Assembly (NCBI GenBank): GCA_001692895.1
Contig: KV748269.1
Span: 248,001 to 312,000 of the forward strand
DNA length: 64,000 nucleotides
From: Cenococcum geophilum 1.58
Taxonomy: Eukaryota; Ascomycota; Dothideomycetes; Gloniales; Gloniaceae
Direction: 5' to 3'
Shown here: piece after piece, positions 3,778 through 47,709 of the stretch
Layout: each line of letters starts with the position of its first letter
Numbering within the stretch: position 1 is the stretch's first letter
Notes under the pieces: model-generated
Database searches by the model: none
Seen by the model: only the letters and a program-made list of their open reading frames with translations
Told to the model about the DNA's origin: nothing
Translations under genes and position numbers: made by a program

Positions 3778-6700
3778 CTATCTCCCTCCTCTCTATCTTT
3801 ATCCTTAAAGATTCTAAATATCTCTAAGTTATTTACTAGAGGTATAATATTCGTCTAATTATTTTGGTTAATATTATTACTTATTATACCTAAAGCAATT
3901 TCTTTATCCTTAACCGCTTGTCGCATTCGCACTATTGCTGCAATATTATCTCTTAGTGAGATTATACCGTCTCCGTATTCTCGCTATTTAAAAGAAGGGT
4001 TAGTTTATATTATGTTAGTAAACCTATCTTTATAACAATCGTCCTCTTACTTAAAGTGCACTAAAGTAAATATTCGTTTATTCTATAACGTTCGCTCCGT
4101 CTCTAATACTAAATATACGCAACTTATTACTTTTAATAGTTGTCTAATTCCCTAATTAATTTATCTTAGGGTCTTATATTTAATCTACTATAACACAGCT
4201 AGATAATAAACTATTTATTACTCTAGCGGAACTGCGCTAATCCCGTAATGCTAAATAAGAGGCTACTAATACTTAGCAACGGGCCCTTAAGTCTTATCTT
4301 GCGGCATCCGCTTAGTTAATCCGTCTTAAGAAGGTACGTAAGAAGGTGCGTTTTAAAAAGTGGAAACTTATAGAATAGGGTCTATAGGAACTTAGTAATA
4401 AAAAAACGGATTTTCTTCTAATATAGAAGGAAATAGATCTAAGTAGTTCGGCAACTACTCTTCTTAGGTCCCCCTTAGGTAACTTATTTTTTAGTAATCC
4501 TTTTTTATTAATACTGCTTAACCTAATTTCTTCTAATACTCCTGTACCTTTTCTATAGCATTTTTTAAATTTTCTAGTAGTTCCTAGGTAGTCTTAGTGT
4601 AGCCTATCTACTTTACCTTATACTATATTTTATTATTAATGTCTTTATAACTAACAATCTTTAAAACTTGCTATTTATCTTCTTTTTATCCTCTATACGT
4701 ATCTGCCTTATAAACTAGTAGCTTAACATTCCTATATACTAGCTCTAGCATTGCGATATACTATATAGGGTAGATCTTTATCTTAGCTAATAGGTCTAAT
4801 TTAAACGTAACCGGTGAAATCCTTTGCGTAATTTCGAAAGGTCTTAATTTAATATAGTCCAACTTCTTACTTAGTTGTTGGCTCTTAAAATTTTTATATA
4901 GTAGCTATACTTTATCTCCCTCCTTAAGATCTAGTCCCTTAGATCTCTTAGTATTATAGTACCTTTTTATTCTTTCTTATACTTTCTTTACTAATTCTAT
5001 AAAGTTTATATAAAGATTTATTAACATCTTTATCCTTTCTTTAGCTGTACTACTTGTTTTCTTCGCTTATTATAGTAATAATGATATTCTTAGCTTATAC
5101 CCGTAATTCGCCTTAAATAGTAATATACCTATTCCTTCTTAAGGTGTTATATTATATATAAACTATATAACTAGTAATAATAATACCTAATTATTCTATG
5201 CGTAATTAATATAATGTCTTAGATACTACTTTAGTGTCTAATTTAACCTTTCCGTTTAGCCGTCTATCTGCGGGTAATATGCAGTAGAAGTTACTACTCT
5301 AACTCCTTACTCCGCTAAAAATACCTCCTAAAATACTACTATGAATTTTAGATCTCTATCTAATATAATTTTACTTAGTGCTCTATGTTTTATAAACACT
5401 TCTTTAATATAGATTCTAGCAACATCTTCTACTAATATTTCTTCTATATATACTATAAAGTATCCCTACTTTATAAGCTTGTCTACTATTACTAAGATTA
5501 CATTATAATCTTATCTGGTAATAGGGTCTCTTAACTTTAGCAACTTAATAATAAAGTCCTATAATATAACCTTTTATAGTCTCTCTAGTATCTTAATAGG
5601 TTATAGCCCTCCATATAGCTTATACCTCGTTAGTTTATTCCTTTAGTGATTTAGATATTCTTTTATAACTTTTTATACTAAGCCCTAGATTCCGTTAATA
5701 ATATACTCCTCTTAAAGTCTTAACACTAAGCCTCTAGCTCTATTATGTCCTTAAGTTATTCCCTTATAGAAATCTTCTATAAATTACTCTGCTATACTTC
5801 TTAGGATATACTTAGCTTCTTAGTTCTCGTATATATCCGCCTATAGATCTTCTAGCTATACTTTTAAAATTCTTTATACCCAAAAGCTTTCTAGTGTCTT
5901 ATAAACTCTATTTAACTCTTCCTAAGTTGTTATAATTTTCAGATAATTATATCTAATTAATCCGTTTATATCTTTTTATAGTAAAGCCCGTAATAGCTTC
6001 TTATCGTTTTATAGTTTAGCTTTTTAACTTAGAGCATCTACTTGCGTATTATCTATACCCTTAGTATACTAAATCTTAAAATAGTATTCTATAAGCATCT
6101 CTACCCATCTAACCTATTTTTAGTTAAGTTCCTTTATTATTAGAAATCCTGTTAGGTTTTTATAATCCATTTTAACTATAAATAGTTTCTCTATACCTTA
6201 TAAGAATGCTCTCTATTCCTTTAATACTATAACTATACCTAATAACTCTTTATTATAGATGTTATAGTTTAACTCTAGTAGTATTATCTTTTAACTATAG
6301 TATACTACTAGGTGCCATCTATCTTAATATTTTTATATAAAGTATACCCCTAGTATATAGTCTAATGCATCTATTTCTATAACCGTCTCTAGTCCTAGTT
6401 AATAGATCTTAAGAACTAGCTCCTAGGTAAATAACTTTTTAACTTTCTTAAAGAGTCCCTACTGTTCCTCTCCCTACGCCTATAGTTCTTCCTTTTTCGT
6501 TAATCGCGTAAATAGCTTAATATTCTTTAACTATTGCGCTATAAACCTTCTACAGTAATTGCAAAACCCTAGGAATAATCTTAACTGCGTAACGTTCTCT
6601 AGTTCTTGCTAATTCACTATAGCTTTAATCTTCTTTAGATCTATATTAAGTTGGCCTAGTTTAATAATAAATCTAACGAAATTGGTCTTCCTAGTAAAGA

Positions 6701-7030
6701 ACTCGCACTTCTTAATTACTACTAGCATCTGTTCTTCTTGTAGTCTCTTTAAGACCTATTTAATATATTCCCCGTATTCTTTTTTAGTTATTAAGTAGAT
6801 AATAATATTATTAAGGTATGCCATAACAAATTTATCTAAGTGTTCTCCTAATACATTGTTAATACGCTTCTAGAACGTCGCTAGTGCGTTTATAAGCCCG
6901 AATTGCATAACTAATAGTTTATATAGTCCTTCCTTTAACCTAAAAGCTGCCTTCTATTTATCGCCTTCCTTAATTCTAATCTAATGCATCGGGAAAATAT
7001 TCGCAGGATGAGATTTAAGTAGACTTTGAT

Positions 7031-7720
7031 TTTCGCGTTTCGCGTAATTGACATGCAATTTGACCAACTCGACACGCAATTGACCAACTTGACACGCATT
7101 TGACTAAGGGAGCGTTCGGTTGCAATCTGGAGCTTTTTCAATCTGACGTTGACCTGTGCTTTCTTCCGGCAGAAAGGACGCGTTCCTTCCTAATTTGATA
7201 CGCGTTTGTGGCTTTATAAAAGCACGGGCGTGTGCAATCTNAAGNCTCNAGAATGAACTNAATCTNAAATCTGGAACGTAGACCTNNAGATTNAACTGAC
7301 GCCAAGACCTTCAGTTCAGAAGCCGTATACAGTAAAGTTGCCAACTTTTTAGTAACTTTTAGCGTGTTTTTTGGGCGGTCAGAGGAACATCAAAAATTTG
7401 TGGCTGAAGTCAGGTTGAACTGGAATTCAACCGAACAGTCGCCTTAGAATCAGATTGGAGCTCTAGATCAACTTCATTCTAAACTAAATCTAGGGCCTCC
7501 AGATTGCAACCGAACGCTCCCTAACTTGACACACAATTCAACCAACTTAACACGTAATTGACCAACTTAATACGCAATTCGACTAACTTAATACGCAATT
7601 GACTAACTTAATACGCAATTCGACCAACTTAATACGTAATTAACTAACTTAACACGCAATTTAACCAATTTAACACGTAATTGATACGCAATTAACTAAC
7701 TTAATATATTTAAAAGTTAA
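7031..7720. repeat. R1 array a: 20-21-bp tandem repeat
   Basis: Units resemble AACTTAATACGCAATTGACT with 21-bp variants carrying an extra C before GAC. The array is interrupted by MITE-1 (7,108-7,521). Degenerate edge units shade into single-copy sequence, so limits are approximate. Confidence 0.85.
7108..7521. mobile_element. MITE-1 (414 bp, 25-bp perfect TIRs, TSD TAA)
   Basis: The first 25 bases (7,108-7,132, starting GGGAGCGTTCGGTTGCA) are the exact reverse complement of 7,497-7,521. TAA flanks both ends (7,105-7,107 and 7,522-7,524). A 3-bp TAA duplication and a GGG start suggest the PIF/Harbinger superfamily (inference). It lies within array a of R1. It is visibly less AT-biased than its host and contains a cluster of undetermined bases at about 7,241-7,293. 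No transposase. Confidence 0.85.
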
Positions 7721-7868
7721 ATAATACGCAGTTAACCTACTTAGCAACTTTAAAAGGTAACTATATATTTCTTAATATGCAATTAAGGTAAAGTTATATA
7801 CTATATATTTAACTATTATATATTATCTAATATAATCTTATACAATCTTATATAGTCTTATTACTTAG

Positions 7869-8276
7869 AGGCTCTATATAAGGCTTTGTATAAGGCTCTA
7901 TATAAAGCTTTATATAAAGCTCTACGTATAGAGGCTCTATATAAAGCTCTACACATAGAGGCTCTATATAAAGCTCTGCGCATAGAGGCTCTGTATAAAG
8001 CTCTATATAAAGCTCTATATAAAGCTCTATATATAAAGGCTCTGTATAAGGCTTTACGCAAGGCTCTATATATAGAGGCTTTATATAAAGCTCTATATAA
8101 AGCTCTATACGAGGCTTTACGTAAAGCTCTATATATAGAGGCTCTATATAAAGCTCTGTATAAGGCTCTACGCGAAGCTCTATATACGGAGGCTCTATAT
8201 AAAGCTCTATATAAAGCTCTATATAAAGCTCTATATATAGAGGCTCTATATAAGGCTCTACGCGAAGCTCTATATT
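7869..8276. repeat. R1 array b: 12-bp tandem repeat
   Basis: About 34 units close to TATAAAGCTCTA, with GAGGCTCTA variants. Because the unit is a multiple of three, stop-free frames appear on both strands; these are not genes. The unit differs from that of R2 (CACGAAGCTCTG) only by C-to-T and G-to-A changes. Confidence 0.9.
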
Positions 8277-8399
8277 AGGTCCCCGCTATATTCCTAATAG
8301 CGTCTATATATATCTCTACCTATATAGCCGCCTTATTTTTTACCCTTCCTTTTTTCCTTATATCCTCTCTACCTAGGGAGGCACTAGAACGGCAGCTAG

Positions 8400-9095
8400 T
8401 AAAGGACCGTTGCTAGAACTAGATAACTATTGCTAGAACTAGACAACTGTCGCTAAAACTAGACAACCGTTACTAGAACTAGACAACCGTTACTAGAACT
8501 AGACAACCGTCGCCAGAGCTAGACCACCGTCGCCAGAACCAGATAACCGTCGTCAAAACTAGACAACTATCGCCAGAGCTAGACAACTGTCGCTAGAACT
8601 AGACGACCGTCGCTAGAACCAGACGACCGTCGCTAGAACTAGACGACTATCGCCAAAGCTAGACAACTGTCGCTAGAACTAGACGACCGTCGCCAGAACC
8701 AGACGACCGTCGCCAGAACTAGACGACCGTCGCCAGAGCTAGACAACTGTCGCTAGAACTAGACGACCGTCGCCAGAACTAGACGACCGTCGCTAGAACT
8801 AAACGACTATTGCTAGAGCTAGATAACTGTCGCTAGAACTAGATAACCGTCGCCAGAACTAGACAACTATTACTAGAACTAGACGACCGTTACTAAAACT
8901 AGACAACCGTCGCTAGAACTAGACAACCGTCTCTAAAGTTAAACAACTGTCGCTAAAACTAGATAACTGTCGCTAGAGCTAAACAACCGTCGCTAGAACT
9001 AGATAACTGTCGCCAGAACTAGACAACCGTCTTTAGAGTTAGACGACTATTGCTAGAACCAGATAACTATCGCCAAAGTTAGATAATAATAACTA
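8400..9095. repeat. R1 array c: 20-bp tandem repeat
   Basis: About 34 units near CGCTAGAACTAGACGACCGT, in strict 20-bp register. The array is preceded by a unique segment (about 8,277-8,399) conserved in R2 and R3. Confidence 0.9.
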
Positions 9096-9139
9096 GCTAG
9101 CGAATACTATAAACAATTTAATCAATTAATTAAATTAAG

Positions 9140-9500
9140 GTAGTATAGATAGGTAGGCATAAATAGGGAGATGCTAACGAGTAGGTAGATGTAGATAGGT
9201 AGGTAAATGTAAATAGGTAGGTAGATATAGACAGGTAAGTAGATATAGATAGGTAAGTAAATATAAATAGGTAGGTAGATATAGATAGGTAAGTAGATAT
9301 AGATAGGTAAGTAGATATAGATAGGTAGGCGATATAGACGGGTAGGCAATATAGATAGGTAAGTAGATATAGATAGGTAAGTAGATATAAATAGGTAAGT
9401 AGATGTAGATAGGTAAGCAGATATAAATAGGTAAGTAATATAGATAGGTAGGCAATGTAAATAGGTAGGCAATATAGGTAGGTAGGTAAGTTAATAGATA
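9140..9500. repeat. R1 array d: 16-18-bp tandem repeat
   Basis: Units near ATAGGTAAGTAGATATAG with shortened variants. Minus-strand translations give (YLPIYI)n shadow frames. The remaining 3' part of R1 (9,501-9,829) is non-repetitive and matches R2 and R3. Confidence 0.9.
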
Positions 9501-12500
9501 AATAGGTAGAAGAGAACCATCGCTATATTATAATAAATTATCTAAAATAATAATATTTATTTTACTAGCCTTATAAATAGCTTTAAAGTAGCTTTTATTT
9601 ATTTAAAATATGCTATTAGTATAAAAGAGGTAAATATAATTATGGTTACTAAATGCGTAGATTGCTAGTAGGTTGCGCGTAGGTTGTACGCAGGCTATAC
9701 ATAGGCTGCGTGTTAAAAAAAACACGATATAGGCTAGTCGGTCGAGTTGCTAAATGACCTTAACTACGCGCTAATTGCGTTAACTACTAACTATTAAGGC
9801 CATTAAAAGGGTACCATATTTTCCCGATATGGTACGCCCATCTTAGATTTATCTTTATAAAGATTTGCGCATTACCTATTCTATTTTAAATTTCGCTAAT
9901 TAAGGGTAAAGGATACCTATCCTTTCTAGTAATGCTGTTTAACTATCTATAGTTAATACACAGCCTTAGTTTACCATTTTTTTTAGTATAAATAGTACTA
10001 GATAACCTGCTAATGACTATAATAGTCTAATATATCCCTTTTATAGGTTTTCTTAGATAAACTCTTTTAGTGCTTTATTTTCCTCTTTAGTAAGCTTATA
10101 GATTAGAAAGAACTTTAGGCTTATTCCTAGTTTTAATTCTATTTTATAGTCCTATACTATATATTTTAACAGCTTTTTACTTTCTAATAACTATAGTTTC
10201 TTGCCATACTTATAGTATCTCTTTAGTATATAACTTAAGCCTCGCTTAGTCTCCTTATATATCGCTCTAACTTAATACTATACTAACTTAGCTTATTATC
10301 GCATCTTACGTTATTAAGTATCTTTAATATTAACCTGACCTATAACCTAATTGATTTTTAGATTATATTTCTGTAACTAAGGCATTCCTAGTACTGCCTC
10401 GTTATTTCCTAATAGTAATATATTAAAAGACATTTTGATTTATCTCCCTTTAATAGTTAACTAAATAGGTCCTATTTTAAGACTAATAATGCCTCCCCTA
10501 TAGGCTATTAGATCTCCTAAAATGGTCACTAATAGGTAAGGTTCCTCCTTTTACTTATAAGGTAATCCTATCCTCTTAACCGCTACTAGTAAGATATAGT
10601 TCCTTATTACTTTACTATTTATTAGCGCTTTAAACTGCTAATCTTACTATTTAACTTATAAATTTAGGTGTCGACCTTGAATTCCTTTAAGGGTCTAAGG
10701 CTCTACTACTAGCTCCCTTTGGTTCCGTAGGCCTCTACTTTTCCTAACTATTAGCTACTTAATCCTATTTATATTTAGTCCAACTTAGGCTAATACTTAG
10801 TTTACTTTTTATCTTTAATATACCATAAATATATATTCTCTAGGTATTTCTACTACTATTATTTATCTAGGCATTCTTCTATAAGGAATCTTTCTGGCTA
10901 AAGTATTAAGTCTCCTAACTCCTGAACTTCTACTAAATACCAGCTATATATATACTTAGTGTTTTAATACCTCTGTTTATCTACTAACTAATACATTTTT
11001 ATAGGGTATTTCCAATGCTTATTCTTTAGTACTCTATATATATTATATATATTATCTATATATATAATCCACGTTAATATATAATATGCTAGGTGCTTTA
11101 GGTTAACTCTTAGCTCGTCTTTATCCTTAAGTTTAAACCTCTTTTATATTAATCTAAACGTTATAACTTTATTCGCAGGTACTAAAATATATCGCTTACT
11201 TCTTTAGTCCTCTAAACGCTTCTCTAGATCCTTTAATATTATAATTAAGGCTCCCTTAATGTAACTTATTACTTTTTCCATAATTAGGTAGTCCTAGATA
11301 ACTTTTTTATCTAGCTATATATAGAAATCTTCCTACTTATTATTATGCCTTTGCCTATACCACTTTTAGTATAGCTACTAGAGTGTATACGGCTTATCCA
11401 TAAGGAAGTATCTTCTTATCGCTATATTATAATAACCTTTAGTATATTGTTTCTTAAACCTAGTTAGAATCCCTAGATCCTCTTTATTTTCTAGTTTAGT
11501 AAGCTACTTAGCTCTTAGTATGCCTACTTTAGGCCTATTAGTAATTCTTTATACTAGCGCTTTATCCCTTATACGTCCTAATATACTAAATCTCTTATCT
11601 AGTTTCTGCTCTTGCTATAAGGTAATTCTCACTCTAAATTTCTCTATAGTCTCTTTTCTTTCGCGTCTTATAAGTAGATCCTTAAAGTCTTCTTACTTTT
11701 TAATCTTAGTATTGGTTTTCTAATCTTTAGGCCAAATACTATACTCTTCTAGTAAGTCTTTTGGGTCTATATACCTGTCTCCTAATCTAGTTGCTATTTA
11801 TACTATAGATTCTCTAATCTTATTAATATTTCTTATTTGTGTCTTAAAGTCTTAGTTCTATAGGATTCTTAATCCCAAGCTTGCTTCTAACTTAAGCTTT
11901 ACTCCTACCTTAGTCTAACTAGGCTTACTTGGTATTCTTATCTTATCTTAAAAGTCTTATACCTATAGGAATTTCTATCCCGAGCTTATTCTTATATCTT
12001 TAAACTAAGCCGCTGCTCTACTCTATTGGTTATCGTCTATTATAGGTCCTTAAGCTTGCCTTATCTTATCTTAAGAATCTTAGTCGTCTTTTATCTCGTC
12101 TTAAGAATCTTAAGCCTTTAGCCTTTTGCCTTTATTAAGTGCCAAAGTAGTTCGCTATCCTACTTCTCTTATATCTTGTAAAGCGACAGATATTATATCT
12201 AGTGGGGTCTTAATCCCTACTAATATTCCTTATTCTATAGTGGAATTATCCTCTACTTTTGTTATAACATCTCCGAGGTCTACGTGCTCTTAATAAGCCG
12301 CCTTTATTGCCTTATTATTATATAATGTTTTACCTTTATTAAACTTATCGTCCTTAATATCCGATCTGTAAACTAGTTCGTTAGTTCCTCTATATTTTAT
12401 AGATTTTGGCTCCTATAGCTAATAGCTTACGCCATACTTAGCATCTTTATAAATTTAGTATATATTATTATAACAAAATATAAAACTTCTAATTAAACAT

Positions 12501-25254: not shown

Positions 25255-25610
25255 CATCGGGAAAATATTCGCAGGATGAGATTCAAGTAGACTTTGGTTT
25301 TCGCGTTTCGCGTAATTGACATGCAATTCAACCAACTCGACACGCAATTGACCAACTTGACACGTAATTGACCAATTTGACACATCCAAAAGTCAAATAA
25401 CACGCAGTTAACCTATTTAACAACTTTAAAAGCTAACTATATATTTCTTGACACGCAGTTGACCTACTTAATAGCTAACTGTATATTCCTTGACACGCAG
25501 TTAACCTATTTAACAACTTTAAAAGCTAACTGTATATTCCTTGACATGCAATTAAGGTAAAGTTATATACTAATTACGCAAATAAATTTTTACACAGTTT
25601 TATTACTTAG

Positions 25611-26405
25611 AGGCTCTGCATAAGGCTCTACACAAAGCTTTACACGAAGCTCTACACAAAGCTCTATATAAAGCTCTACACGAAGCTCTACACGAAGCTC
25701 TACACGAAGCTCTACACGAAGCTCTACACGAAGCTCTACACGAAGCTCTACACGAAGCTCACACGAAGCTCTACACGAAGCTCTACACGAAGCTCTACAC
25801 GAAGCTCTACACGAAGCTCTACACGAAGCTCTACACGAAGCTCTACACGAAGCTCTACGTACAGAGGCTCTGCACGAGGCTCTGCGCGAGCTCTGCGTAC
25901 GGAGGCTCTGCACGAAGCTCTGCACGAAGCTCTGCACGAAGCTCTGCACGAAGCTCTGCACGAAGCTCTGCGTACGGAGGCTCTGCACGAAGCTCTGCAC
26001 GAAGCTCTGCACGAAGCTCTGCACGAGCTCTGCACGAAGCTCTGCACGAAGCTCTGCACGAAGCTCTGCACGAAGCTCTACGTAGAGCTCTGCACGAGGC
26101 CTGCGCGAGGCTCTGCGCGAGCCGCGTACGGAGGCTCTGCACGAAGCTCTGCACGAGCTCTGCACGAAGCTCTGCACGAAGCTCTGCACGAGGCTCTGCA
26201 CGAGGCTCTGCACGAGGCTCTGCGCGAAGCTCTGCGTACGGAGACTCTACACGAAGCTCTGCACGAGGCTTTGCGCGAAGCTCTACATACGGAGGCTCTA
26301 CACGAAGCTCTACACGAAGCTCTATACGAAGCTCTACGTACAGAGGCTCTGCACAAGGCTCTGCGCGAAGCTCTGCGTACGGAGGCTCTACACGAAGCTC
26401 TGCAT
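25611..26405. repeat. R2 array b: 12-bp tandem repeat, GC-rich form
   Basis: About 66 units near CACGAAGCTCTG, with GAGGCTCTG, CGTACGGAGG and shorter variants. Open frames in several registers on both strands (Arg-Ala-Ser-Cys or Val-Gln-Ser-Phe repeats on the minus strand) are by-products of the 12-bp period. Confidence 0.9.
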
Positions 26406-26519
26406 CGGGTCCCCGCTATATTCCCAATAGCGTCTACACGTGTCTCTGCCTATATAGCCGCCTTATTTTTTACCCTTCCTTCCTTCCTTATATCCTCCCT
26501 ACCTAGGGAGGCACTAGAA

Positions 26520-26965
26520 CGGCAGCCAGCAGAGGACCGTTGCTAGAACTAGATGACTATCGCTAAAACTAGACGACCGTCGCCAGAACCAGACGACCGT
26601 TACCAGAACCAGACGACCGTCGCTAGAGCCAGACGACCGTCGCCAGAACCAGACAACCGTCGTCAGAGCCAGACGACTATCGCCAGAGCCAGACAACTGT
26701 CGCTAGAACTAGACGACCGTCGCCAGAACTAGATGACCGTTACTAGAACCAGACGACCGTCGCCGTCGCCAGACGACCGTCTCCAGAGTCAGACGACTGT
26801 CGCCAAAACCAGATAACCGTCGCCAGAGCCAGACGACCGTCGCCAGAACTAGACCACCGTTGCTAGAACCAGACCACCGTCGCCAGAGCTAGACGACCGT
26901 CGCCAGAGCTAGACGACCGTTACTAGAACCAGACGACCGTCGCAAGAGCCAGACAACAACGACTA
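26520..26965. repeat. R2 array c: 20-bp tandem repeat
   Basis: About 22 units near CGCCAGAACCAGACGACCGT. Fewer units than in R1. Confidence 0.9.
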
Positions 26966-27004
26966 GCCAGCGAACGCTATAAACGATTCAATTGATCGAT
27001 TAAA

Positions 27005-27360
27005 TTAAGGTACCACAAACAGGTAGGCATAAGTAAGGAGATACTAATAGGTAAGTAGATGCAGATAGGTAGGCAGATACTAACGGGTAGGCAGATATAG
27101 ATAGGTAGGCAGATACTAATAGGTAGGCAGATATAAACAGGTAGGTAGATATAAATAGGTAGGCAATATAGATAGGTAGGCAATACAAACAGGTAGGCAA
27201 TGTAGATAGATAGGTAATGTAGATAGGTAGGCAATATAGACAGGTAGGCAATGTAAATAGGTAGGCAATGCAGATAGGTAGGTAATGTAGATAGGTAGGT
27301 AATATAGATAGGTAGATAATATAGATAGGTAGGCGATGCAGGCAGGTTAGTAAGTCAATA
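27005..27360. repeat. R2 array d: 16-18-bp tandem repeat
   Basis: Units near ATAGGTAGGCAATGTAG with ATAGGTAGGCAGATAT variants. Followed by the conserved unique 3' segment ending at 27,700. Confidence 0.88.
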
Positions 27361-27700
27361 GGTAGATAGGTAGAAGAGAACCATCGCTATATTATATTAA
27401 ATTATCTAAAATAATATTTATTTTACTAGTCTTATAAATAGCTTTAAAGTAGCTTTTATTTATTTAAAATATACTATTAGTATAAAAGAGGTAAATATAA
27501 TTATAGTTACTAAATGCGTAGATTACTGGTAGGTTGCGCGCAGGTTGCGCGCAAATTGCTCGCAGGCTACGCATAGGCTGCGTGTTAAAAAAACATAATA
27601 TAGGCTAGTCGGTCAAGTTGCTAAATGCCCTTAACTGCGCGCCAATTGCGTCAACTACTAACTATTAAGGCCATTGGTAGGGTACTATATTTTACCAATA

Positions 27701-28764: not shown

Positions 28765-28784
28765 TATCGGGAAAATATTTATAG
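28765..28784. mobile_element. R3, left 20 bp (terminus)
   Basis: TATCGGGAAAATATTTATAG is the left terminus of the R family. It is separated from the rest of R3 (34,763-37,031) by copia B. Rejoining at the TATAG duplication restores the R1/R2 order, with GATAAGATTTAAG continuing. Confidence 0.85.
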
Positions 28785-29030
28785 TGTTGGTATGACTTTT
28801 ATAACGTGCAGAATATATATATTACAATGATATATACTATGCGGTGTTGTAGATAAATGATTGATTCTCTAAGATCTACAAGTCGTGAGAGGTAAGGCTC
28901 GTTACGTGTTTTCCTGTGACCTCTATTAACCAATTACGATTTTCCATACCCGGTATAGAAAATCGCCATTAGCTTGCTTACTACTAGCGCCTTAGCCGCC
29001 CTTATAATGTGTCTAATACTTCTAGCTATA
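28785..29030 (-). repeat. copia B 3' LTR (246 bp)
   Basis: Starts TGTTGGTATGAC and ends TCTAGCTATA. Same length as 34,517-34,762. Contains the palindrome at 28,937-28,965. Confidence 0.9.
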
Positions 29031-32000
29031 CTGGGAATACTTTAGAAAACGTGAAGATCCGGTATCCTATAACTGTGTAATCTAAAAATCCATATACGCA
29101 CTTCTTCTTCCTTCCTTACTATTATAGCATAGGTCGTAATAGTACTAGGTAGTGTTATAGGTACAGGTAGATTGCCATAGGTTGCCGCAGATTGCCGTAG
29201 ATTGCGGTCACGTGATATAGAGATTGTATATACCCTCTTTGCCATATTTACACGTCGATTAACTAGATCGCTAACATTATGCGTTTTACCTATTCCACTG
29301 TCTTTAACTTAATTCGGTTTGTGTCAATAAGTCATTTAAGGGCTAATAATGGTTTGCTTTTAGTTATAGCGTTTATAGGGTTGCTGTCTCCGTTAATCCA
29401 TTTAACTTCCGCTATTTCGCGTCTTTTATATAACTGGCGTAGGCACATAACATTAATCATAAGTCTCTTCTCTTATGTAGTTCCTAGTTTAACAAGGCAT
29501 TTATAAATTAACTTAGAATTAGTGTAAAGAATAAGCGGGAGGCTAATGTTAAGTTGCAATTTGACTATAGCTTTGATTGCAGCGCCGATGTTAAAACTAT
29601 AGGCCATAGCATATAATTCGGAGGCTAGTACACTTTTAGCAATTCTCTTGTATTTAACTAAGGACCAGTAGACAATATTCGCCTTATTTAATAAGTCTGC
29701 TAGTACTAGGATATATTTAATCTATAATAAGAGGTCCTTATTATTTGCGAATGAGGAATTAGTAAATACAAGTAGTTAAAGTGTCTTTATATTAAGCTTA
29801 ACAAAGCTTAAGCCTCTTATTGGGTTCTCAATTTGCCACTGAATTCTCTTATTAAGTAGTTTTGCGTCTTTCTTGTTAGGGTTAATTACCTAGGCAGCGT
29901 AGTATAAATTAAAAGAAGCTTTAGGCTGGTATATAGACGCAATATAAGCTCCTTTTACTTGTTAGGCGATATATTGGTCCTTGGGTGTAAGTGCTATACA
30001 AATAGTGCCTTTAGAACTGGTTATTATAGTAGCTTCCTTAATATTAATAAGGGTTAAGTTCTGGCATTGGTGCTCTTATATAAGCGTAATTATATAATCC
30101 TATTATTAGACAATGCCTCTGTTAAACTTAATTAGGTATTCCAGTATAAGTTACTCGCGTTCTTTAGTTAGGAACTTAGCTTTCTTAATCTTCTCCTGTT
30201 TTAAAGCTGTAAAAACGAAGTTAGCTAGTAGAAGGGTGTTATTAGTCTATAAACTAACTATTCCGAAACTTATAGGGTTATTAAGGTAAAGTAGGCAGGG
30301 GTTATAAGTGGATTAGCTCATGTTTAGTTCTTTAATATAGTGGTTATAGTAAGTCTTAAACTAATAATTGCCTACCTTAGGAATGCCGTATAAAGGTCTA
30401 ACGACTTTTAAAATTGTACCTTATAAGACTTTAAGTGCTATACTAAGTTTAAGAGGTGCTTTGATATAAAAGTCTTAGTTTAGTTTCGTAGTTAATTGTA
30501 TATAGGCCTATAAAATATCTCGTAAGTAGAGATATATACTATCGTTCTAAGTTATAGCTATAATATAAAGAATAAGGCGTTGGCTGACTTGTTAAATTAT
30601 AGGTGATTAGGTTAGTACGAGGTCTTTCTCTAGGTCGTTATAGGCCTGTATAACTAGTCTTGACTTCTTAAAGGCTTTATTAGTGCCAGGGTTTTTAATC
30701 TCGTTAATAAATCTAGAGTTAAATACTCTATTGCCTTATAGTATATCCTTAGGGTTAACTAGTTCAAAAACTCCTTTCTTAAGCAATCCCTTAATCTCCT
30801 TCTAGCGTAATACTATAAACTGATTAGGATTTATAAGTTGATTATTATCCTCATCCTATAGATAAATTAAGATATTCGCGGTATTTGCTTTAATAGGGTA
30901 CTTATGTGGTCTACCTCTTCCGCGTTTAACGGGTTAAGGTCTAGGCTCGGTTTAAGGTTAAGGTAGTTTAATATTATTATCTTCTAGTTGCGTATCTTTT
31001 ATAATTTCGGGGTCTACTATATATAGTTTTATAACTGTGCTGCGGAAGTTAGTAGGTCTATAGGGAAGTTATATAGTATAGGTCTTATTTTTAATGCTAA
31101 GTAGGTTATACGGACCAGGCTAGTAGCTAGGTTGGCCTGTGGGTCCTTCTCTCTATACTAATATAGGTGAGTTAAGTAGTAGGTTATAAATCGCGGTTAT
31201 CTTAGGTCTGTTACGTATATTAAAGGCATCTGCTACTTAGCGCTTAGCTTTAAGCTTCTTAACTTCTTCTATAGCCTTTTTAAAAGCTACTACTTGTTTT
31301 ATAACTATAGAATTGGGTGCGTCGGATTCCACTATATATAGGTAAGCTCCAAATACTAATAAGGTAGGTATGAGACCATTAGGGCCTATAGAGTCGTTAA
31401 TTGCTTTAAAAGCCATTTATAAAGCTATATCTTTATTAATGTTTAGTAGTTCTATAATAATAATATAGTATATATAACGGAGGGGGCTATAGTAACATTC
31501 TACCATTCTAACTAAATTATGGGCTTTAATAGGTACGCCTTTTGTAACTGTTCCGAGTATTATAGCGTATTGTTTAAATTCTTTACTTATAAAGTTCTTA
31601 CCTATATTATGTGTAATAATATTAGGGGGTCCTAGGTATATATCGATCCAGTATATTCGTAGTATATCCTATATATACTTGGCGCTAATACTTTATAGCT
31701 ATCTACTGGCTTAAAATCGTGTTCCTTTATTAACAATATATAGTAGAGGTGTGCCATTAATATATATAATATTAACCACGATTAAGTAGTTAAAATCAAT
31801 ATTATTATATAAGGTAAATCTAAATCTACCAGGCGACTTTCTATGTTTTTAATAATAGTGGTAGTAACGTATAAGATGGTCTAAAGTCTTACTATTAATA
31901 TCATGCCCTAAGTATTTAAGTATTTGTGTAAGACGCTTAACTAAAGGGTAGCCAAAGCGACGATATAGTCGTCTTAATTTAATATTAGTTAAGTAGTAGG

Positions 32001-34516
32001 GGTTTTAATTAAATAATATAGTTAAGTAGTTGCACAGGGATGTGTTTTAAAGGAGGAATAGATAGCTAAAGCAATATATAACTGGTACTTCGCTCTAAGG
32101 GGTAATTAGTATATTTTTTAGGTTGTTAAAGTATACTTATAGTTGATTTATATCTGCTAAGTAGAGCAAAAATAGGGTGTCGACTTTAATAATATAAAAC
32201 TCGATTATGCTAATTAGGGTAGTTACTTTAGTTAATCCAATTAATAAGGTTAATTTAATGCCGAATTGTATATTAACCATGCCTTATGTGGTGGTATTAA
32301 GTTGTACACCGGTATTAAGTCTTTGGAATGCTAGGAATTGGCCATATCCTACTATAGATTGTTTAGATGCTTCTATGTTAATTATTATACCTATAAAGTA
32401 GTCTATAGTATAGCGGGACGTAAATATGGTTATATTGTAGGTAAAGGGGTCCTAGTTAGTTATAAGAGGTATTATATTATTTATAGTTGTGACCAAATAG
32501 CTAAAGGCTTTATTAGCTAGGGTAGCAGCTATAGAAGTTGCTTTATGCTGTTCTACTTGGCCGAAAGAGGTATAGAAGTGGTCAATATCTAGTTAAAAGT
32601 TCTTGCCGGTTGCCTTATAATTTATATTAATAGTTAGTACTTAGAAAGCTTCCTTAAGCTCTTCTTCTAAGTTAATATCGTTATCCTTGTAGTCTATAAT
32701 ATATTAATTAAGTTGTTTATTAAATCGGTTATCGAATTTATTAAACTTATCTCTGTTAGCGGTTCTAAACTTAACTTTAGACTTTTCTCGTTCTTCTTAG
32801 GTATAGTTCTATAATTAGCAGCCTTCCTTATTACATATAAAGCAACGTAGTTTATAATATAGAGAGAAATAAGGGCGGGTGTGGTCGCGGTTATGGATTC
32901 GGTTGTAAGTTCGGTTTTAATATTAGTTATAGTTTCGATACTAATTGTGGCTATTCTCCCTTCTAAAGTACTGACGATTTATATAGTAAGCTTAAGTTTA
33001 AGCTTGCTCTAGGTTCTGTTTTTTATAAGCCGTAATTAAGGACTATAGTTTGTTAATAAGGGGGCCTAGTTCTTAAGGTGGGTTTAATATAGCGAATTGG
33101 TATATATAAATTCCCTGGCAAGACGTAATAAGTTTATTGGTCAGGAATAGTGTTGTTTATAGTTCTGGGGTAAGGCTATACTGTAGTTAGGAGAGTATAT
33201 TAATTAATATTTAGAGGTAATTACTAGTTGATTTGTCTGTATTCTTATTTATTATCGTCCTTAATAAGATTGCATTTTATTTACTAAGGTTCTTGCGTTC
33301 TAAGCTAGGGCCTTTAAAGAAATTGCGAAGGTGCCTATAAGCGTCTTTAAATAAGAGATTACTAAGTCTACTATTAAAGTATTAGTTTAAGGCTAGACCT
33401 ATTAACATAATTAGTAAAGCTTTATTATAAGCCTTTTGTGGAATATTAGATCGGCTATAGATGTTATAAAAGATAGTAAGTTTATAATTAAAGCTGCTAT
33501 TTATGCTATTATATTTAAGTTCCTCTATATACATCTTTACTATATTAGAAATCTCTTTGCCCTATCCTAGTATAGTTAGCATCTATAGGAGGGGAGCGGT
33601 TTAGGGTCGTGGGGTTATATACGGTAAAGGTCCTACTAGTGTTCCTTTAGATAGTGGTAGGGTTATAGTCTAGACACTTAATGGTTGTTATAGTTGAAAT
33701 AGGGTTATATAAACTGTTGGGTCTTATAATACTTTATAGTTAAAACCGCGCTTAAGTGTATTGTTTATTTTATTTAACTAAAACCCGTTTCTATCTAGCT
33801 TATTATACACCTTATTTAAGTTCTCTTAAGTCTAGGAATATTAACGTTCTTTCTAGGTTAATTTAAATAAGAGTTGCGTATATATTGTGCGTTTCTCCTT
33901 TATACGTACATATACTCCTCTATATTGTAGGAAGGTATATATACTTTAAAGGTGCTATGTATTTACTTTTAAAAATATATTAACACTAAATATTTTAAAA
34001 TCGTCTTAAAAGGAAGACTAAAGTCTATTATCTATTAGCTTATACTTGTTGTATTCCCATAACTTAAATAATATAAAGTCTATAAGGTCTTTATTAGTTG
34101 CTATTTATATATTAATCTCGTTTTTCTATTATTCTGCTTCTACTTTCTAGTCCGTAGGTATAGCTATTTTAGAAGGGATAAGGACGCGTAGAATGGTTTA
34201 GGGGACGGTTTAAGTGGTCGTTCGAGGGACAGTTTAAGTAGTAGTTGGGGTAGTCGCGTTCTTGGTGTGGTTGCGTTCTTAATGTGGTCGCGTTAACTAC
34301 TAGTATAGTAGTCTGTCTCTGGTTAAGGTAGAGCGTTAGACGTCTTCTAAATCTAGGGTAGATTTAAGGTATTTCTGGGTAAGGTAGAGCGTTAGACGTC
34401 TTCTAAATCTAGAGTACTTTAATTCTCTTTAACTGAAATAGGGCCTTTATAAGGTGGAGTGTAAACATCTTCTAAGCAAGTGCGTATTTCCTAATCTGTG
34501 CGCGCTTACTAATTAG

Positions 34517-34762
34517 TATTAGTATGACTTTTATAACGTGCAGAATATATATATTATAATAATATGTACTATACGGTGTTGTAGATGGATAATTGATTCT
34601 TTAAGATCTACGAGTCGCGAGAGGTAAGGCTCGTCACGTGTTCTCCTGTAACCTCTGTCAACCAATCACAATTTTCTATACCCGGTATGGAAAATCGCCA
34701 TTGGCTCGCTTACCACTAGCGCCTTGGCCGCCCTTACGATGTGTTTAACACTTCTAGCTATA
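34517..34762 (-). repeat. copia B 5' LTR (246 bp)
   Basis: Starts TATTAGTATGAC (RIP form of TGTTGG) and ends TCTAGCTATA, then TATAG. The palindrome is at 34,669-34,697. To its left is CGCGCTTACTAATTAG, the shared primer-site-like motif on the minus strand. Confidence 0.9.
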
Positions 34763-39350: not shown

Positions 39351-40650
39351 ACTATTAGACGCTAAAAAGCTAATATTCTTAATTATATATATAAGCTATA
39401 TCTCTAAAGATAATATTGGTGCTTATCTTAGTAAGCGACTTAGCTAGCAACCTAAATAGTAAATCTTATTAGTACTTAACTAGTATAGCTTTACTAGACC
39501 CTTACTAGTATAATCAAATTAGCGTTAGTTAATAATCTATCTTAGTTATTATTTAAGGGCCTTAGTACAAAATATAAGAGGGTCGATTTAAGACTAAATT
39601 TTTTTTAACCCTTTTTAATGTCCTACCTATCGACTTATTCTTAGAGCAATAAGTTTTAAATAAAATAATATAACCGACTGCCTATATTTAATATTTTATA
39701 TAATATAGCTATAACGCCGTTATTTAGTACAATAGATAGAGAAGCGAAAGAACTCTTACCTTATAGTATTTATATAATAACTAGTCGTTATAAAAGGGTT
39801 AAATATATAGGAGAGAGTGTGTTTTATACAAAATTGCGAAAATTGAAGTTGAGTACCATAGATTTCCGCACTATAGGCCCTTAGACGACAGGGCAAACTT
39901 AAGGTCAGTAGATAGCTGATCGGTTAAAAGAAAGTGGCGTTCTTTTAGATAGAGGCTAGTGATACTTTAGTATCAGTGAAGTGCGCCTGCAGTTTGCCCT
40001 TGCAGTCTGAGTCACTTACTGAGATAAATCGGTGCAAGGGATAATAGAGCCTTAAGTAATTGAAGGTTGTGTAAAAAGGCTATGAAAGCTACAGTTCATG
40101 CACCCTTATGATATGTTTTAATGACTCGCCCAGAACGCGTAGTGGCAACGATTAAACAGATTACGGCTTGCAACTTCCGGAACTCTTCCGCATCACGAAA
40201 AGCGGCTATCCCCTTTAACCCTGTTCTACTTTATTGCACATATGGGTATATTGCAATTAAAGTATAACAAGACTTGGAAAGTCCAAGCTTTGATTATCTT
40301 AAAGTGTAAGAAGGTGAATTTACCTAATTAGCCTTATCAAAATTAAATTATATTTACGGACTGCTAACTAAAAAGGAGTGATAGACACTATATTCCCTCA
40401 AAATACTTTTGCCCGGGTTTGGCACAAGTAAAATGTTTAAATAGGGGCAGAATAGTGTTCATTCGATTTTCTAAGGCGTGATCAGAACCCCGGGCCTAAC
40501 CATTCCACAAGACACAATAAAATTCTAACTATAACACGCCCCCGTTCTATGCGAATGGGAATAGAACTGTTACAATGCCCACTTCTAGATATATACATCA
40601 AAGGCTCAAGAAAAGATAACGCAAACAATACCTCGAGAAAATATACTAGA
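39351..40650. other. Boundary between RIP-degraded block and gene island; no gene seen
   Basis: Up to about 39,835 the sequence is TpA-dominated and unreadable. From about 39,840 (TGTGTTTTATACAAAATTGC) composition becomes normal. The stretch 39,840-40,650 is the region 3' of the Mg2+ transporter. I see no ORF, tRNA or repeat in it. Confidence 0.6.
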
Positions 40651-42718
40651 CTATATGTACTTCAACCGCTTTGCAACAACAAGACAGACAACTACAAAAC
40701 TGGCAATTACACCTAGTATACCGAAGAACCAACCCAAGCTGTCACTCGAGCGACCAGGTACCGGAACATTCATCCCAAAAAGACCACAGATGAGGTTAAG
40801 TGGGACCAATATTGTGGCAATAAGTGTAACCTTTCCCAGAGTTACGTTAGCTGAATTGCCCTGAATCAAGTTGTCAACGCTGATCTGCGCAAGATAATTA
40901 CTGTGAGATCTGGACAACATTTTCTCGAAGTGTCCCAGATTAGACATCATCGTAACAACGTGATCTTGTATGTCGGATAGGTAAAGGCCAACGTCTCCAC
41001 GTGGGGCAACATTATAATTCTCGTTGCAGCGTTTTGCAAACCCTTTGATAACATCGGCTTTTCCACCTAACAAACGGAGCAGGGACATAACCTTTTTCCG
41101 ACAGTCTCCTATGGCACGAAGTATAACGCGAGAATCTTCGACTCGTGCCGTGAAGACTTGATCTTCAATAGCGTCGGTCTCATGCTCAACTTCTCGGATT
41201 ACAGGAGCAAAAGTATCAACAATATCGTCACTATATAATTTGTCAGTGTCAGTAAATCAATAAGGTATGCCTGCAAAGGCCTTACATTAGAGCGTAACAG
41301 ATCCAGTCCGAGCTGAGCGAAACATAATCCCGTAGCCTCCCTATTCTCTTGCGAACATTCGCAGCGTGTGGACTTTCACAAAATGTGAAGGTCAACAACC
41401 CTTCTTTAAACACAACCGCATACACATTCACTGGCTCAAGGAAATCCTCACTCGTCTTCTCCATCTGGTAGAAAGACCGGAAGCAGACGAAATAGTAGTA
41501 ATGGAATAATTCCACTTTTTCGCGAGTTTCTTGAGTGGTGATGTCTTCACGGGTGAGTGGGTGCACACCAAACGCTTTACAAATAGCGAAGACTTCCTCC
41601 TCCGTTGGGTTCACCATGTCTAACCACCAGACGCCACCCTCGGGAGAGAGCTCAAAGAGATCGCGGAACCTTTCACCTGGCATCAGGAGGCCTCCCAATT
41701 CAGCGGCATGAATCGTGTCATCCAGTTCCGAGGAAAAGAATGTCCATCTATTGAGAGGCACCTCATTTACGCTAGGGTGTCGTTGGAAATTTAGTGAACG
41801 AGCGAGAATATCGGCATCAGCGAACTTCTCATCTAGTGCGATATCCGACGCACGCCCACTAGGAGTTGGTGCTTCAGTGAGTATTTTTGGAACAGTAGGC
41901 GTGCCTGACTTCGGACGGAGATCATTGAAAATTCGTGGATTTGAGATTTGGGAGCCTACACTCGCCTTGTGCCGCAGGGCAGGGACGATTGGTGTTTTTT
42001 CATGGGCCTCGGTGACAAATTCTTCCAACTCTTCAAAGTCGATCTGGGTAGTTTTGCTTGTGTCATCCGTGACTGGGAAGCAAATGTCCTCTTCAGCAGA
42101 ACTGTGGCGAGAGGCAACATCAGTCTGCAGATCATTGGGTCTTTCGTCACTAATAGTAGGGCGTCTTATGTGAGTGCTTCCTGACACGGTTCGATGAAGG
42201 GTCAAGTCCAAATCAGAAGGCGCCCGGCTATTAACAGTTCCGGCCCGATCGCGGCGACGACGATCAGCGAATGCATCTACTGAGTTAGGCGGAGACACGG
42301 AGCGAGATGTCGTAGATGAAACCCTTGATCTTGAGAGTCTCTCCACTTGTTGATCACGAGGTCGGCGAAACGTATTCCTTCGGCCTCCTATGGGACTTGC
42401 TACCGACCCCCGTCTCCCATAAGCATTGTCTCCCAGAAAAGAGCCATGGTTGCTTCTATCATCATCCACAATTACATTTTCGAAGTCCCTCGTTGCCATT
42501 CCATGTCGTTCTAGGGCTTCGTTAACTTGCAATAGATCTGGTCTCTCCATAGGTTGAAGGCTAACATGTGTACCTCTCCTGGTCCCAGGGTTAGACTGCA
42601 TGGCACCGTTCACTTCCACTCTGGGCAACGAGACCGGCTGGTGACGATGGTCATCAAGGTCAGACACAGGAGTGCTGAATCTCGTTTGAGACCTCTCGGA
42701 CTTTGGAGTATCAGACAT
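40651..42718 (-). CDS. CorA-family Mg2+ transporter, Mnr2/Alr1 type
   Basis: A membrane channel for Mg2+ (fungal Alr proteins act at the plasma membrane, Mnr2 at the vacuole; which applies here cannot be told). Two exons: 42,718-41,286 and 41,230-40,651. The 55-nt intron has GTAAGG at the donor, ACTGACA as a possible branch point and TATAG at the acceptor. The spliced product is 670 residues and frame-consistent. Residues 1 to about 330 are Ser/Arg-rich and probably disordered. The CorA domain follows, with REDITTQETREKVE, then RDYVSLSSDWICYALID across the splice, and a helical stalk. Near the C-terminus is the diagnostic GMN motif (LFGMNVPVPG) after the first membrane helix, then a second helix (WFFGILGVIASFVVVCLVV) and a short basic tail. 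No damage is seen. Confidence 0.93.
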
Positions 42719-46008: not shown

Positions 46009-47709
46009 ATGTCGAGCCCCACTCACACTCCCCCACCGAAGGCCTCACGAGCCAAACATCAATACTCAAAGAGCGCAACTCCAACCGCTGCGGCTAGCGG
46101 GGGAAAGACTGCCCAACGTCGTCAACGCAACAATCGAAACAATCATGACAACAACCACACCGTTTCGTACCAAACCCCACAAGCCGAAGCAATGTCGAAC
46201 GGGTTTCCATTTTATGACTCTAGACAGGCGAACTCGGCCCAGAATATAACCCTGAATGACCATGCTAGAGACGACGGCACGGTCTCAGACAGTACAAAGA
46301 CCGGAAGACAGCGTTACAATCAGTCCCAACATTCTCCGTATAAGACAGCAACTTTTGCCACTCTGCCTGACTCTCCTCCTAACGAAGACTCTCAAATCAT
46401 GCAGTCACCAATGGCGCAAAACTCCACACCTGCAAAGTCTCAAACAGCCTACGCTGGACCAACGTTTCATGCGTCGCCAGCGCCGTCAGCATTGCCTATG
46501 CCAAAGTTCTTTTCAAAATCCGTTCCTGGGACCACGTATCAATCAAGTCTGCAGTCTCGTTTAGATAGCGAATCAGACAGCACTTCGTCACCACTATCTC
46601 CACCACCAGTGATAAATGGTGAAGCACAGGGACATGAAGAATCTCCTCTTGACATATTTTTCAAGGCTGATAGAGAGGAAAAGGCTAAACGAAGCAGTGG
46701 CCTCTTTACTCCCAATACCAATGAGCAGCTTAATCATAGCACATCCAACATTGAAACTAGTGGCAAAGACTCCTCCGGGAGTGAATATCGACTACACCAT
46801 TCACGCCACAACTCCCATGGATCTGGCAAAGGACTGTTCTCGATGGAATTGGATGGTAGTGGTGCTGGCCCGCATGTTCCCGCAACAACCTCACCCATGA
46901 CGAATCGTTCGGTCGCAGATCTTTCCCAGATCCCTCAGACTGGCGGCGCAATAGGACATGAAATGGATGCTCGAGCGCTTAAGGATCTTCTATTTTCATT
47001 CACTCAACCAGGATCTCAACTATCAACCCCTCTCTCTCGCCCTGATAGAATTCCTTCGGAGCCATCCTCAAGATTACAATCGCCTTCTCCATTTTATCAA
47101 CCCAAATCTGCTACGCGTAGTGCCTCGGGGCCAACTACTCCAGCTCCTCAAAGCAACGCGGCACCTAATCCCTCGCTTTACTATGGGAATCGAAATCTCT
47201 CTCCACTTTTCAAAGCAGCCAAGTCGGATTCAATCAAGCGAACCTCCAATCTTCGCAAGGAAATTAATCCAGTTTCACCTACAGCCAAACATTCAGAATT
47301 TCCGGTTGTAAAACCACAGGTATCGTCAGCCGACTCACACAAACGCGTGTCTAACCACCTTAACGCATCTACCATGTCTCGCAACTACTTGGAAACCGTT
47401 ATGAAACCAGCAAGCCTACCTCCAAGCGTTTCAACCGAGCTCTCTGGACAAACGTTCGGAGCTCGTTCAGGAATCAAACCCGAACCGATACCCAGTGGGC
47501 TCCCATTTCATCCTTTGTCTCGTCAAAATACATCCTCTGCCGCTAATGTTGATGGTGTAAATCCTCACTCTTACAATGCGACATCTCCTTCGCCCAAGAA
47601 CTTGAATTACGCTTCTACGAATTCGGCTGAAATAGAGTCTATGGAAAAAAATCTACGGCGATTACTCAATCTTAATACTGTAGGTGGTAACATCACTGGC
47701 GTTCGATAA
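46009..47709 (+). CDS. Edc1/PNRC-motif protein, probable mRNA decapping activator
   Basis: An intronless 566-codon frame rich in Ser, Pro, Asn and Gln, predicted disordered. At about residues 147-170 it carries AYAGPTFHASPAPSALPMPK, matching the PNRC/Edc1 short linear motif (YAGxxF...SPxPxxLPxPxF). In yeast Edc1/Edc2 and human PNRC2 this segment binds the Dcp1 EVH1 domain and activates Dcp2 decapping. A second conserved-looking piece is the C-terminal amphipathic EIESMEKNLRRLLNLNT. An Arg/Asn-rich stretch near residues 37-50 could contact RNA. It is much longer than yeast Edc1 (175 residues), as usual for filamentous fungi. The role is inferred from the motif. The leader carries a 48-codon uORF. 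Confidence 0.75.
   Translation: MSSPTHTPPPKASRAKHQYSKSATPTAAASGGKTAQRRQRNNRNNHDNNHTVSYQTPQAEAMSNGFPFYDSRQANSAQNITLNDHARDDGTVSDSTKTGRQRYNQSQHSPYKTATFATLPDSPPNEDSQIMQSPMAQNSTPAKSQTAYAGPTFHASPAPSALPMPKFFSKSVPGTTYQSSLQSRLDSESDSTSSPLSPPPVINGEAQGHEESPLDIFFKADREEKAKRSSGLFTPNTNEQLNHSTSNIETSGKDSSGSEYRLHHSRHNSHGSGKGLFSMELDGSGAGPHVPATTSPMTNRSVADLSQIPQTGGAIGHEMDARALKDLLFSFTQPGSQLSTPLSRPDRIPSEPSSRLQSPSPFYQPKSATRSASGPTTPAPQSNAAPNPSLYYGNRNLSPLFKAAKSDSIKRTSNLRKEINPVSPTAKHSEFPVVKPQVSSADSHKRVSNHLNASTMSRNYLETVMKPASLPPSVSTELSGQTFGARSGIKPEPIPSGLPFHPLSRQNTSSAANVDGVNPHSYNATSPSPKNLNYASTNSAEIESMEKNLRRLLNLNTVGGNITGVR

Follow-up and report, generated by a model that had tools for sequence, protein, structure and literature searches.

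A high-copy transposon family with a body of ordered minisatellites in Cenococcum geophilum, probably mobilised by Plavaka-type elements of about 20 kb

CACTA/EnSpm elements have repeats near their ends, and miniature inverted-repeat transposable elements (MITEs) are protein-less, a few hundred bp long and present in high copy number. Non-autonomous Helentrons are mobile, protein-less carriers, in oyster with satellite-like arrays (PMC7492417); DINE-1 is a further example of such a carrier (PMC4067079). Tandem repeats linked with an inverted-repeat element are described for the Tetris foldback transposon of Drosophila virilis (PMC4079207) and for a MITE of Porphyromonas gingivalis that bears a minisatellite (PMC4596501). 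The part of a 2025 survey used here describes Plavaka from Agaricomycotina, and gives the Plavaka/CMCT clade duplications of 2-5 bp with 5'-CA..TG-3' ends in most cases and PlavakaB duplications of 2-3 bp with the termini CATCA..TGATG (PMC12730594). In this study we describe R, a family of the fungus Cenococcum geophilum 1.58, three copies of which (R1, R2 and R3) lie in a window of 64,000 nucleotides (bases 248001-312000 of contig KV748269.1, here C94); the genome searched comprises 177.19 Mb in 162 contigs. R is, very probably, a high-copy non-autonomous cut-and-paste family that is mobilised in trans by a Plavaka-type transposon of about 20 kb (CMC/CACTA clade) and carries a swapped-in minisatellite body. 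It has precise boundaries, a 2-bp target duplication and hundreds of copies, and both its ends stand at fixed distances around Plavaka transposase matches.

The earlier note on this window had proposed a genome-wide search with the tail and the termini. A total of 452 exact matches to the terminus YATCGGGAAAATAT were found in the genome, compared to 21 for the reversed pattern. There were 516 matches to the R 5' end (control 1), 385 to the main 3' end (control 0) and 51 to the 3' end of a second subfamily (control 0). The unique tail of R2 gave 746 first-look candidates, with the 40 scored being 91-100% identical. Within the window, the terminus is exact at 6987, 25255 and 28765 on the forward strand and at 9816 and 37018 on the reverse strand, and has two mismatches at 27687 on the reverse strand. 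Seven matches at up to two mismatches occur there, including an unrelated one at 40631, and 2 of 100 shuffles also reached seven; the in-window matches are modestly above chance, and the genome-wide counts are decisive. The same terminus beside other sequence (YATCGGVAAAATATVH) had 17 matches against 44 in the control, so that no further family was seen in the contexts that this pattern covers. A pattern built to exclude R 5' ends had one match against two in the control.

Twenty loci were fetched around tail matches and a further twenty around terminus matches; as they were picked for R sequence, they are uninformative on frequency. Automatic pairing of 5' and 3' ends gave 39 pairs, 34 of them with equal dinucleotides. 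Two pairings, L032 minus (6,047 bp) and L037 minus (8,358 bp), were dropped because their ends came from different copies, leaving 33 of 37, and with R3 added the same dinucleotide is found outside the CATCGGG..CCGATG ends in 34 of 38 elements. These duplications are TA (15), AA (8), TT (5), TC (2) and CT, AT, AG and TG (one each). When both boundaries were moved by 1-4 bases only 1-7 of the 38 dinucleotides matched, and with shuffled partners the mean was 9.9 and the maximum 20. A one-base move of both boundaries takes the matches from 34 down to 7 and 4, so the duplication does not exceed 2 bp. The joined flanks align to a paralogue through the junction in 17 of the 38 elements, although one of these (L015) is the element's own locus and is weak. 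The target of R1 has an uninterrupted paralogue in the window at 1608-1905, 89% identical and free of gaps. The dinucleotide matches, their controls and the uninterrupted paralogues therefore identify R as a precise insertion with a 2-bp duplication, and the genome-wide counts of its ends add that it is a genuine transposon family with hundreds of copies. The inverted termini and positions that the earlier note had given for R1-R3 are borne out, and the target duplication that it left to be defined is 2 bp.

The usual order of parts is terminus, array A (20 and 40-42 bp), array B (12 bp), a unique segment of about 130 bp, array C (20 bp), array D (17-18 bp), tail and terminus. Tandem Repeats Finder recovered arrays of 20-21/40-42, 12, 20 and 17-18 bp in this sequence in R1, R2 and R3 alike. 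Between C and D, many copies additionally carry a TAGG array and another 20-bp array, and many have an 11-bp array within the tail. The fixed order claimed earlier for the three copies extends to 37 elements (36 two-ended ones and R3, excluding one with 1,636 Ns), among whose detected arrays A<B<C<D is unviolated; a simple pattern detected all four arrays in 24 of them and fewer in 13. The 33 copies without large nested inserts measure 1,370-3,060 bp with a mean of 2,413 bp (R1 being counted with its 414-bp insert). The number of units differs greatly from copy to copy, and array C is absent from some of them (L043 and L046). Units of array B are barely more alike within elements (0.868) than between them (0.830; 31 elements), and renewal of the arrays after insertion therefore cannot be claimed. 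The uniform purine/pyrimidine pattern of the B units stems from the search pattern itself and is disregarded. Open frames of 130, 207 and 171 amino acids all consist of repeats within array B; judged by their open frames, the copies appear to encode no protein, as had been proposed.

Three long elements (L028, L036 and L038) were considered as autonomous R copies and rejected, as by eye they hold nested insertions. A CCHC-like zinc-knuckle stretch lies in the nested insertion of L028 and a related stretch in L036, while L038:2621-7430 is a DIRS-like stretch with pieces of tyrosine recombinase and reverse transcriptase within the R tail (all by eye).

The link to Plavaka comes from a profile search with PF18759, which found 123 matches in the genome and none in 14 control genomes; every match listed contains stop codons. 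For the end-distance test, 13 of the 123 rows were dropped as second halves of split matches, and 67 one-piece and 43 short rows were retained. The test covered the contigs reached by the first 100 of the 516 5' ends and the first 100 of the 385 3' ends, within which ten one-piece matches were testable for a 5' end and 22 for a 3' end. An R 5' end lies 1,952-2,206 bp from seven of the ten and an R 3' end 16,743-17,290 bp from six of the 22, in each case on a single side and strand. Controls with flipped strand or opposite side gave 0, and 2,000 rounds of random placement (the length of contig C8 being assumed) gave means of 0.008 for the 5' and 0.0225 for the 3' end, with a maximum of one. Both ends surround a Plavaka match in two copies, C1:6268557-6288510 and C4:3823060-3843045, where they stand about 20.0 kb apart. 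By eye, five of 49 5' ends of the second subfamily have a Plavaka match at a distance of 1.93-2.10 kb, always in the same geometry, and these five take in all four ends of the GGCAAGG variant. The three Plavaka-linked 5' ends that were read (L049-L051) have best R 5' matches of 91.9-94.3% identity over 86-97 bases, and array A starts soon after the terminus in each. Relatives with a Plavaka match between R termini thus seem to exist at about 20 kb, as located by coordinates only; the earlier note had suggested looking for a full-length relative with a transposase and the same termini.

No R end was found at these distances from the short or split Plavaka matches (0 of 7 for the 5' end, 0 of 9 for the 3' end). 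These rows form a second Plavaka group, in which 13 places are matched as two parts with the break at about profile position 168-194, where an intron or insert may lie. At two Plavaka matches, C1:1645561 and C7:2247217, the R-type 5' end stands not at about 2 kb but at about 10.1-10.2 kb, which a nested insert might explain. TET/JBP (PF12851), which some Plavaka elements carry as cargo, had no match in the genome, but none in the control genomes either, so that its lack carries no weight.

These observations would fit a mechanism in which the Plavaka transposase recognises the shared ends, namely the 14-bp inverted terminus together with as much as about 85 bp of 5' subterminal sequence, which takes in the beginning of array A, and ignores the element body. 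The body would then be a cassette (array B, unique segment, C, often TAGG and C', and D) swapped in between such ends, perhaps by template switching while excision gaps are repaired, and its unit numbers may have been altered afterwards via slippage or unequal repair with mobility unharmed. The 37 R tails differ from the majority base by 647 transitions and 150 transversions, with C-to-T change at 25% in CpA and G-to-A change at 21% in TpG compared to 1.4-7.4% in the five other tabulated contexts. C-to-T in CpA and G-to-A in TpG is the pattern of repeat-induced point mutation (RIP), and RIP-like CpA-to-TpA change has damaged the R copies; the T or A end base in some copies fits it, and it would account for a terminus that starts with either C or T. 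The RIP-type mutations in R and the stop codons in the transposase matches suggest that both are old, and on account of the two together the family is probably inactive now.

The same cassette was also found away from R ends. Array C was searched for with a 27-base pattern that picks up 26 of 37 R copies, and 2,285 places in the genome matched (control 10). On contig C1, for which the listing is complete, these form 32 clusters as grouped by eye, of which 16 have an R end from the lists within 4 kb and the other 16 do not. An exact pattern for the unique segment between B and C matched only 21 places, three of them in the window, which is too few for a test on the giant elements. Among the fetched loci, three cassette copies lack R ends. 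The cassette in L014 (about 1500-2900) has a different 5' part with its own array. In L020 (4028-6030) the cassette adjoins a foldback that starts with CATCAGGAAATTT and finishes with CCTAATA immediately before array B. In L042 (reverse strand, 6379-7300) it adjoins TATTAGGAAAAAATTT ends and retains about 60 bases of R tail; one TATTAGGAAAAAATTT-type end lies about 370 bases past this remnant, and TA stands on both outer sides, which is a weak single case because TA is common. The end sequences beside the cassette in L020 and L042 are CATCAGG/TATTAGG. The reverse arrangement occurs in L037:490-3549. This element keeps the ends, array A and tail of R and a stub of array B, but in place of arrays C and D it holds another, GC-rich series whose units measure about 20, 12, 18 and 20 bases. 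These units show no significant similarity to those of R (shuffle P 0.05 or more). Recombination between ends and bodies seems to have gone in both directions, and at least in L037 the body has been swapped.

Two further observations concern these loci. Another minisatellite with TCCTGGTCGTCCTGACAGGC-like units (L014:1200-1500) is fused to the 5' side of the cassette in L014. The published PlavakaB terminus is closer to the CATCAGGAAA/TATTAGGAAA ends at L020:3769-6030 and L042 (reverse strand) 6075-7675 than to those of R.

The earlier note had named two findings that would refute it: copies whose boundaries depart from the CATCGGG/CCCGATR ends, or arrays that occur independently as ordinary satellites. 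Half of this refutation applies. The boundaries do coincide with the CATCGGG/CCGATG ends in the 34 of 38 elements, but the ordered arrays are also present without those ends in L014, L020, L042 and 16 of the 32 C1 clusters. That the arrays belong to R only is not supported, in view of the cassette with other ends and of the R ends around a different series in L037. It is possible, though somewhat short of likely, that the ordered cassette is itself the unit of exchange, shifted whole from one set of ends to another across at least two or three non-autonomous families (R with CATCGGG, the CATCAGG/TATTAGG type and the unclassified carrier in L014), with R ends also carrying another series.

Several results weigh against a Plavaka-mobilised R with an exchanged body. 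At three of the ten testable one-piece matches the 5' end does not stand at about 2 kb (there is none up to 45 kb at two of them, and at the third it is 10.2 kb away), and 16 of the 22 have no 3' end at 17 kb in the exact-match list (ten have none within 45 kb on the right strand, and six have one at 23-41 kb). The giants are known only by their coordinates. None of the 32 array C clusters lies inside the two-ended C1 giant as judged by the pattern that finds 26 of 37 R copies. Ten of the 16 clusters away from R ends are single matches, the other six having 2-6 matches, and the 16 could include truncated R copies. Lastly, R has CATCG..CGATG rather than the CATCA..TGATG of PlavakaB, for which reason we file it not as PlavakaB but only as probably Plavaka-mobilised.

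Deletion derivatives are the usual origin of non-autonomous elements, and R might be a plain internal deletion of a giant Plavaka element, with arrays A-D taken from the giant's own terminal regions and nothing captured. Array A does lie near the terminus in the three Plavaka-linked ends read. The two-ended C1 giant, however, has no array C match (with a pattern that fails to pick up 11 of the 37 R copies), other ends are found beside the same cassette, and L037 has R ends around another series; we regard this origin as rather unlikely.

The arrays could alternatively be functional, conserved as binding sites for the transposase or an accessory protein, by analogy with the subterminal repeats of CACTA elements. 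The order unviolated in 37 of 37 elements, the place of array A next to the terminus in R and in the Plavaka-linked ends, and the similar periods of the other series in L037 would all agree with such a role. It would sit poorly with the wide variation in unit number and the absence of array C from L043 and L046, with L037 units that are not significantly similar to those of R, with arrays that fill the whole body and not only its ends, and with a cassette found between different termini. A functional role as the reason for the arrays is, to our judgement, unlikely.

Equally unlikely is that the cassettes without R ends are truncated or degraded R copies and the cassette never left R. In its favour, the copies are old and carry RIP mutations, the fetched loci include R copies for which an R 5' end was not detected (L009, L011, L017 and L039), L042 keeps its piece of R tail, and single matches make up ten of the 16 C1 clusters in question. 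Against it, on C1, with the giant excluded, the 18 5' ends and 16 3' ends include 13 pairs, from which about one intact element is expected to have been missed by both lists; yet half of the clusters lie off R, six of them with several matches. Moreover, the copies in L020 and L042 meet the other end type directly where array B begins, and the 5' part of L014 differs and contains an array of its own.

That another superfamily with 2-bp duplications (for example ISL2EU, of the PIF/Harbinger group) moves R, the Plavaka link being coincidence or nesting, is very improbable. The survey allows Harbinger relatives duplications of 0, 2 or 3 bp (PMC12730594), and the transposase search in this genome covered Plavaka. 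Against it stand the fixed distances on both sides and on one strand, at 7 of 10 and 6 of 22 matches where 0.008 and 0.0225 were expected, and the 5'-CA..TG-3' ends, which are of the Plavaka clade type. Ordinary dispersed satellite arrays without a mobile unit can practically be dismissed, for although arrays occur outside R ends, this reading is contradicted by the target duplications, the paralogous empty sites and the fixed ends.

Comparison with the known systems places a Plavaka-mobilised R closest to the Plavaka/CMCT clade, with which it shares a 2-bp duplication, CATCGGG..CCGATG ends of the CA..TG form (with a T or A end base in some copies) that come close to the CATCA..TGATG of PlavakaB and, by coordinates only, the fixed distances to PF18759 matches. 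R itself codes for nothing recognised, and its partner is about 20 kb. CACTA/EnSpm and its non-autonomous derivatives belong to the same wider clade as Plavaka, and a soybean CACTA of 20.5 kb has been published (PMC2613891). The R ends are not CACTA, and its repeats are several long arrays throughout the body rather than short subterminal motifs. Helentrons resemble R as mobile, protein-less carriers, in oyster with satellite-like arrays. To our knowledge, Helitrons and Helentrons have no target duplication and no matched terminal inverted repeats, whereas R has a target duplication and inverted termini. In contrast to Tetris and the P. gingivalis MITE, R has four or more different arrays that keep their order, and ends of more than one type are found with the series. 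We know of no Tc1/mariner duplication other than TA, while 19 of the 34 R duplications are not TA. Canonical PIF/Harbinger elements have a 3-bp duplication, and that of R does not go beyond 2 bp. R copies are longer than MITEs and, unlike ordinary satellite DNA, R has element boundaries.

The features of the three copies in the window are collected in Table 1.

Table 1. Coordinates of the R copies and their parts in the window
Feature	Position	Strand	Basis
R1, complete copy, target duplication TG/TG	6987..9829	+	termini, flanks, paralogous empty site
R1 5' terminus CATCGGGAAAATAT	6987..7000	+	pattern match
R1 array A, 20-21/40 bp, split by nested insert	7050..7760	+	Tandem Repeats Finder
R1 array B, 12 bp	7866..8275	+	Tandem Repeats Finder
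R1 unique segment between arrays B and C	8278..8405	+	90% identical to R2 counterpart
R1 array C, 20 bp	8406..9067	+	Tandem Repeats Finder
R1 array D, 18 bp	9181..9488	+	Tandem Repeats Finder
R1 unique tail and 3' terminus	9503..9829	+	
R2, complete copy, flanks AA/AA, 3' terminus mutated (TATTGGTAAAATAT in inward reading)	25255..27700	+	
R2 array B, 12 bp, about 63 units	25625..26401	+	Tandem Repeats Finder
R2 array C, 20 bp	26530..26954	+	Tandem Repeats Finder
R2 array D, 17 bp	27046..27341	+	Tandem Repeats Finder
R3 5' end, cut off from R3 body by long terminal repeat (LTR)-type insert	28765..28784	+	
R3 body and 3' end, flanks AA/AA	34763..37031	+	Tandem Repeats Finder, terminus match

The net lengths given earlier, 2,426 bp for R1, 2,446 bp for R2 and 2,284 bp for R3, are right once inserts are removed by eye: from R1 a 414-bp insert with its TAA duplication (7108-7521) and from R3 an LTR-type insert with a TATAG duplication (28785-34762). 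The insert in array A of R1 has long inverted ends (GGGAGCGTTCGG..CCGAACGCTCCC), TAA on both sides and several Ns, and presumably is a MITE of the PIF/Harbinger type. Both ends of the insert in R3 carry similar sequence by eye. The claim that each copy sits in a different retroelement is supported for R1 only, at whose left edge a reverse transcriptase match begins at profile position 81, followed by RNase H and Tf2-1-like matches; the other flank of R1 has no Pfam match, nor do the flanks of R2 and R3 in the plus-strand frames tested. An Rfam search of the window gave no match. A GC-richer island with long open frames at 40651-42718 (-) and 46009-47709 (+), between repeat-rich stretches, probably holds host genes, one frame of which we take to resemble a CorA-type transporter.

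R is a new family of a known kind, the non-autonomous partner of a Plavaka-type transposon; its minisatellite body is unusual and apparently transferable, and its partner is large. No description of R was found in the literature searched, the scope of which left out most subscription journals and supplementary tables, including the C. geophilum repeat tables, and neither a carrier with a minisatellite body nor Plavaka-type elements of about 20 kb can be called unpublished. Plavaka outside mushrooms is not new in itself, as the word also appears in papers on Rhizophagus and Amoebidium.

As an array is easily annotated as satellite and its ends as a separate transposon, annotation may break such carriers up and lose them. 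In the present case the carrier and its boundaries are identified along with the likely source of its transposase, which provides a concrete route by which minisatellites could spread and reshuffle in a repeat-swollen fungal genome and points to Plavaka-type elements of about 20 kb. The body is modular, and natural copies with and without each array make it testable whether the arrays are passive filler or needed for mobility. If the cassette does move as a block between different ends, Plavaka-type transposons would be general carriers of tandem-repeat bodies and a source of dispersed minisatellites, with autonomous partners of about 20 kb.

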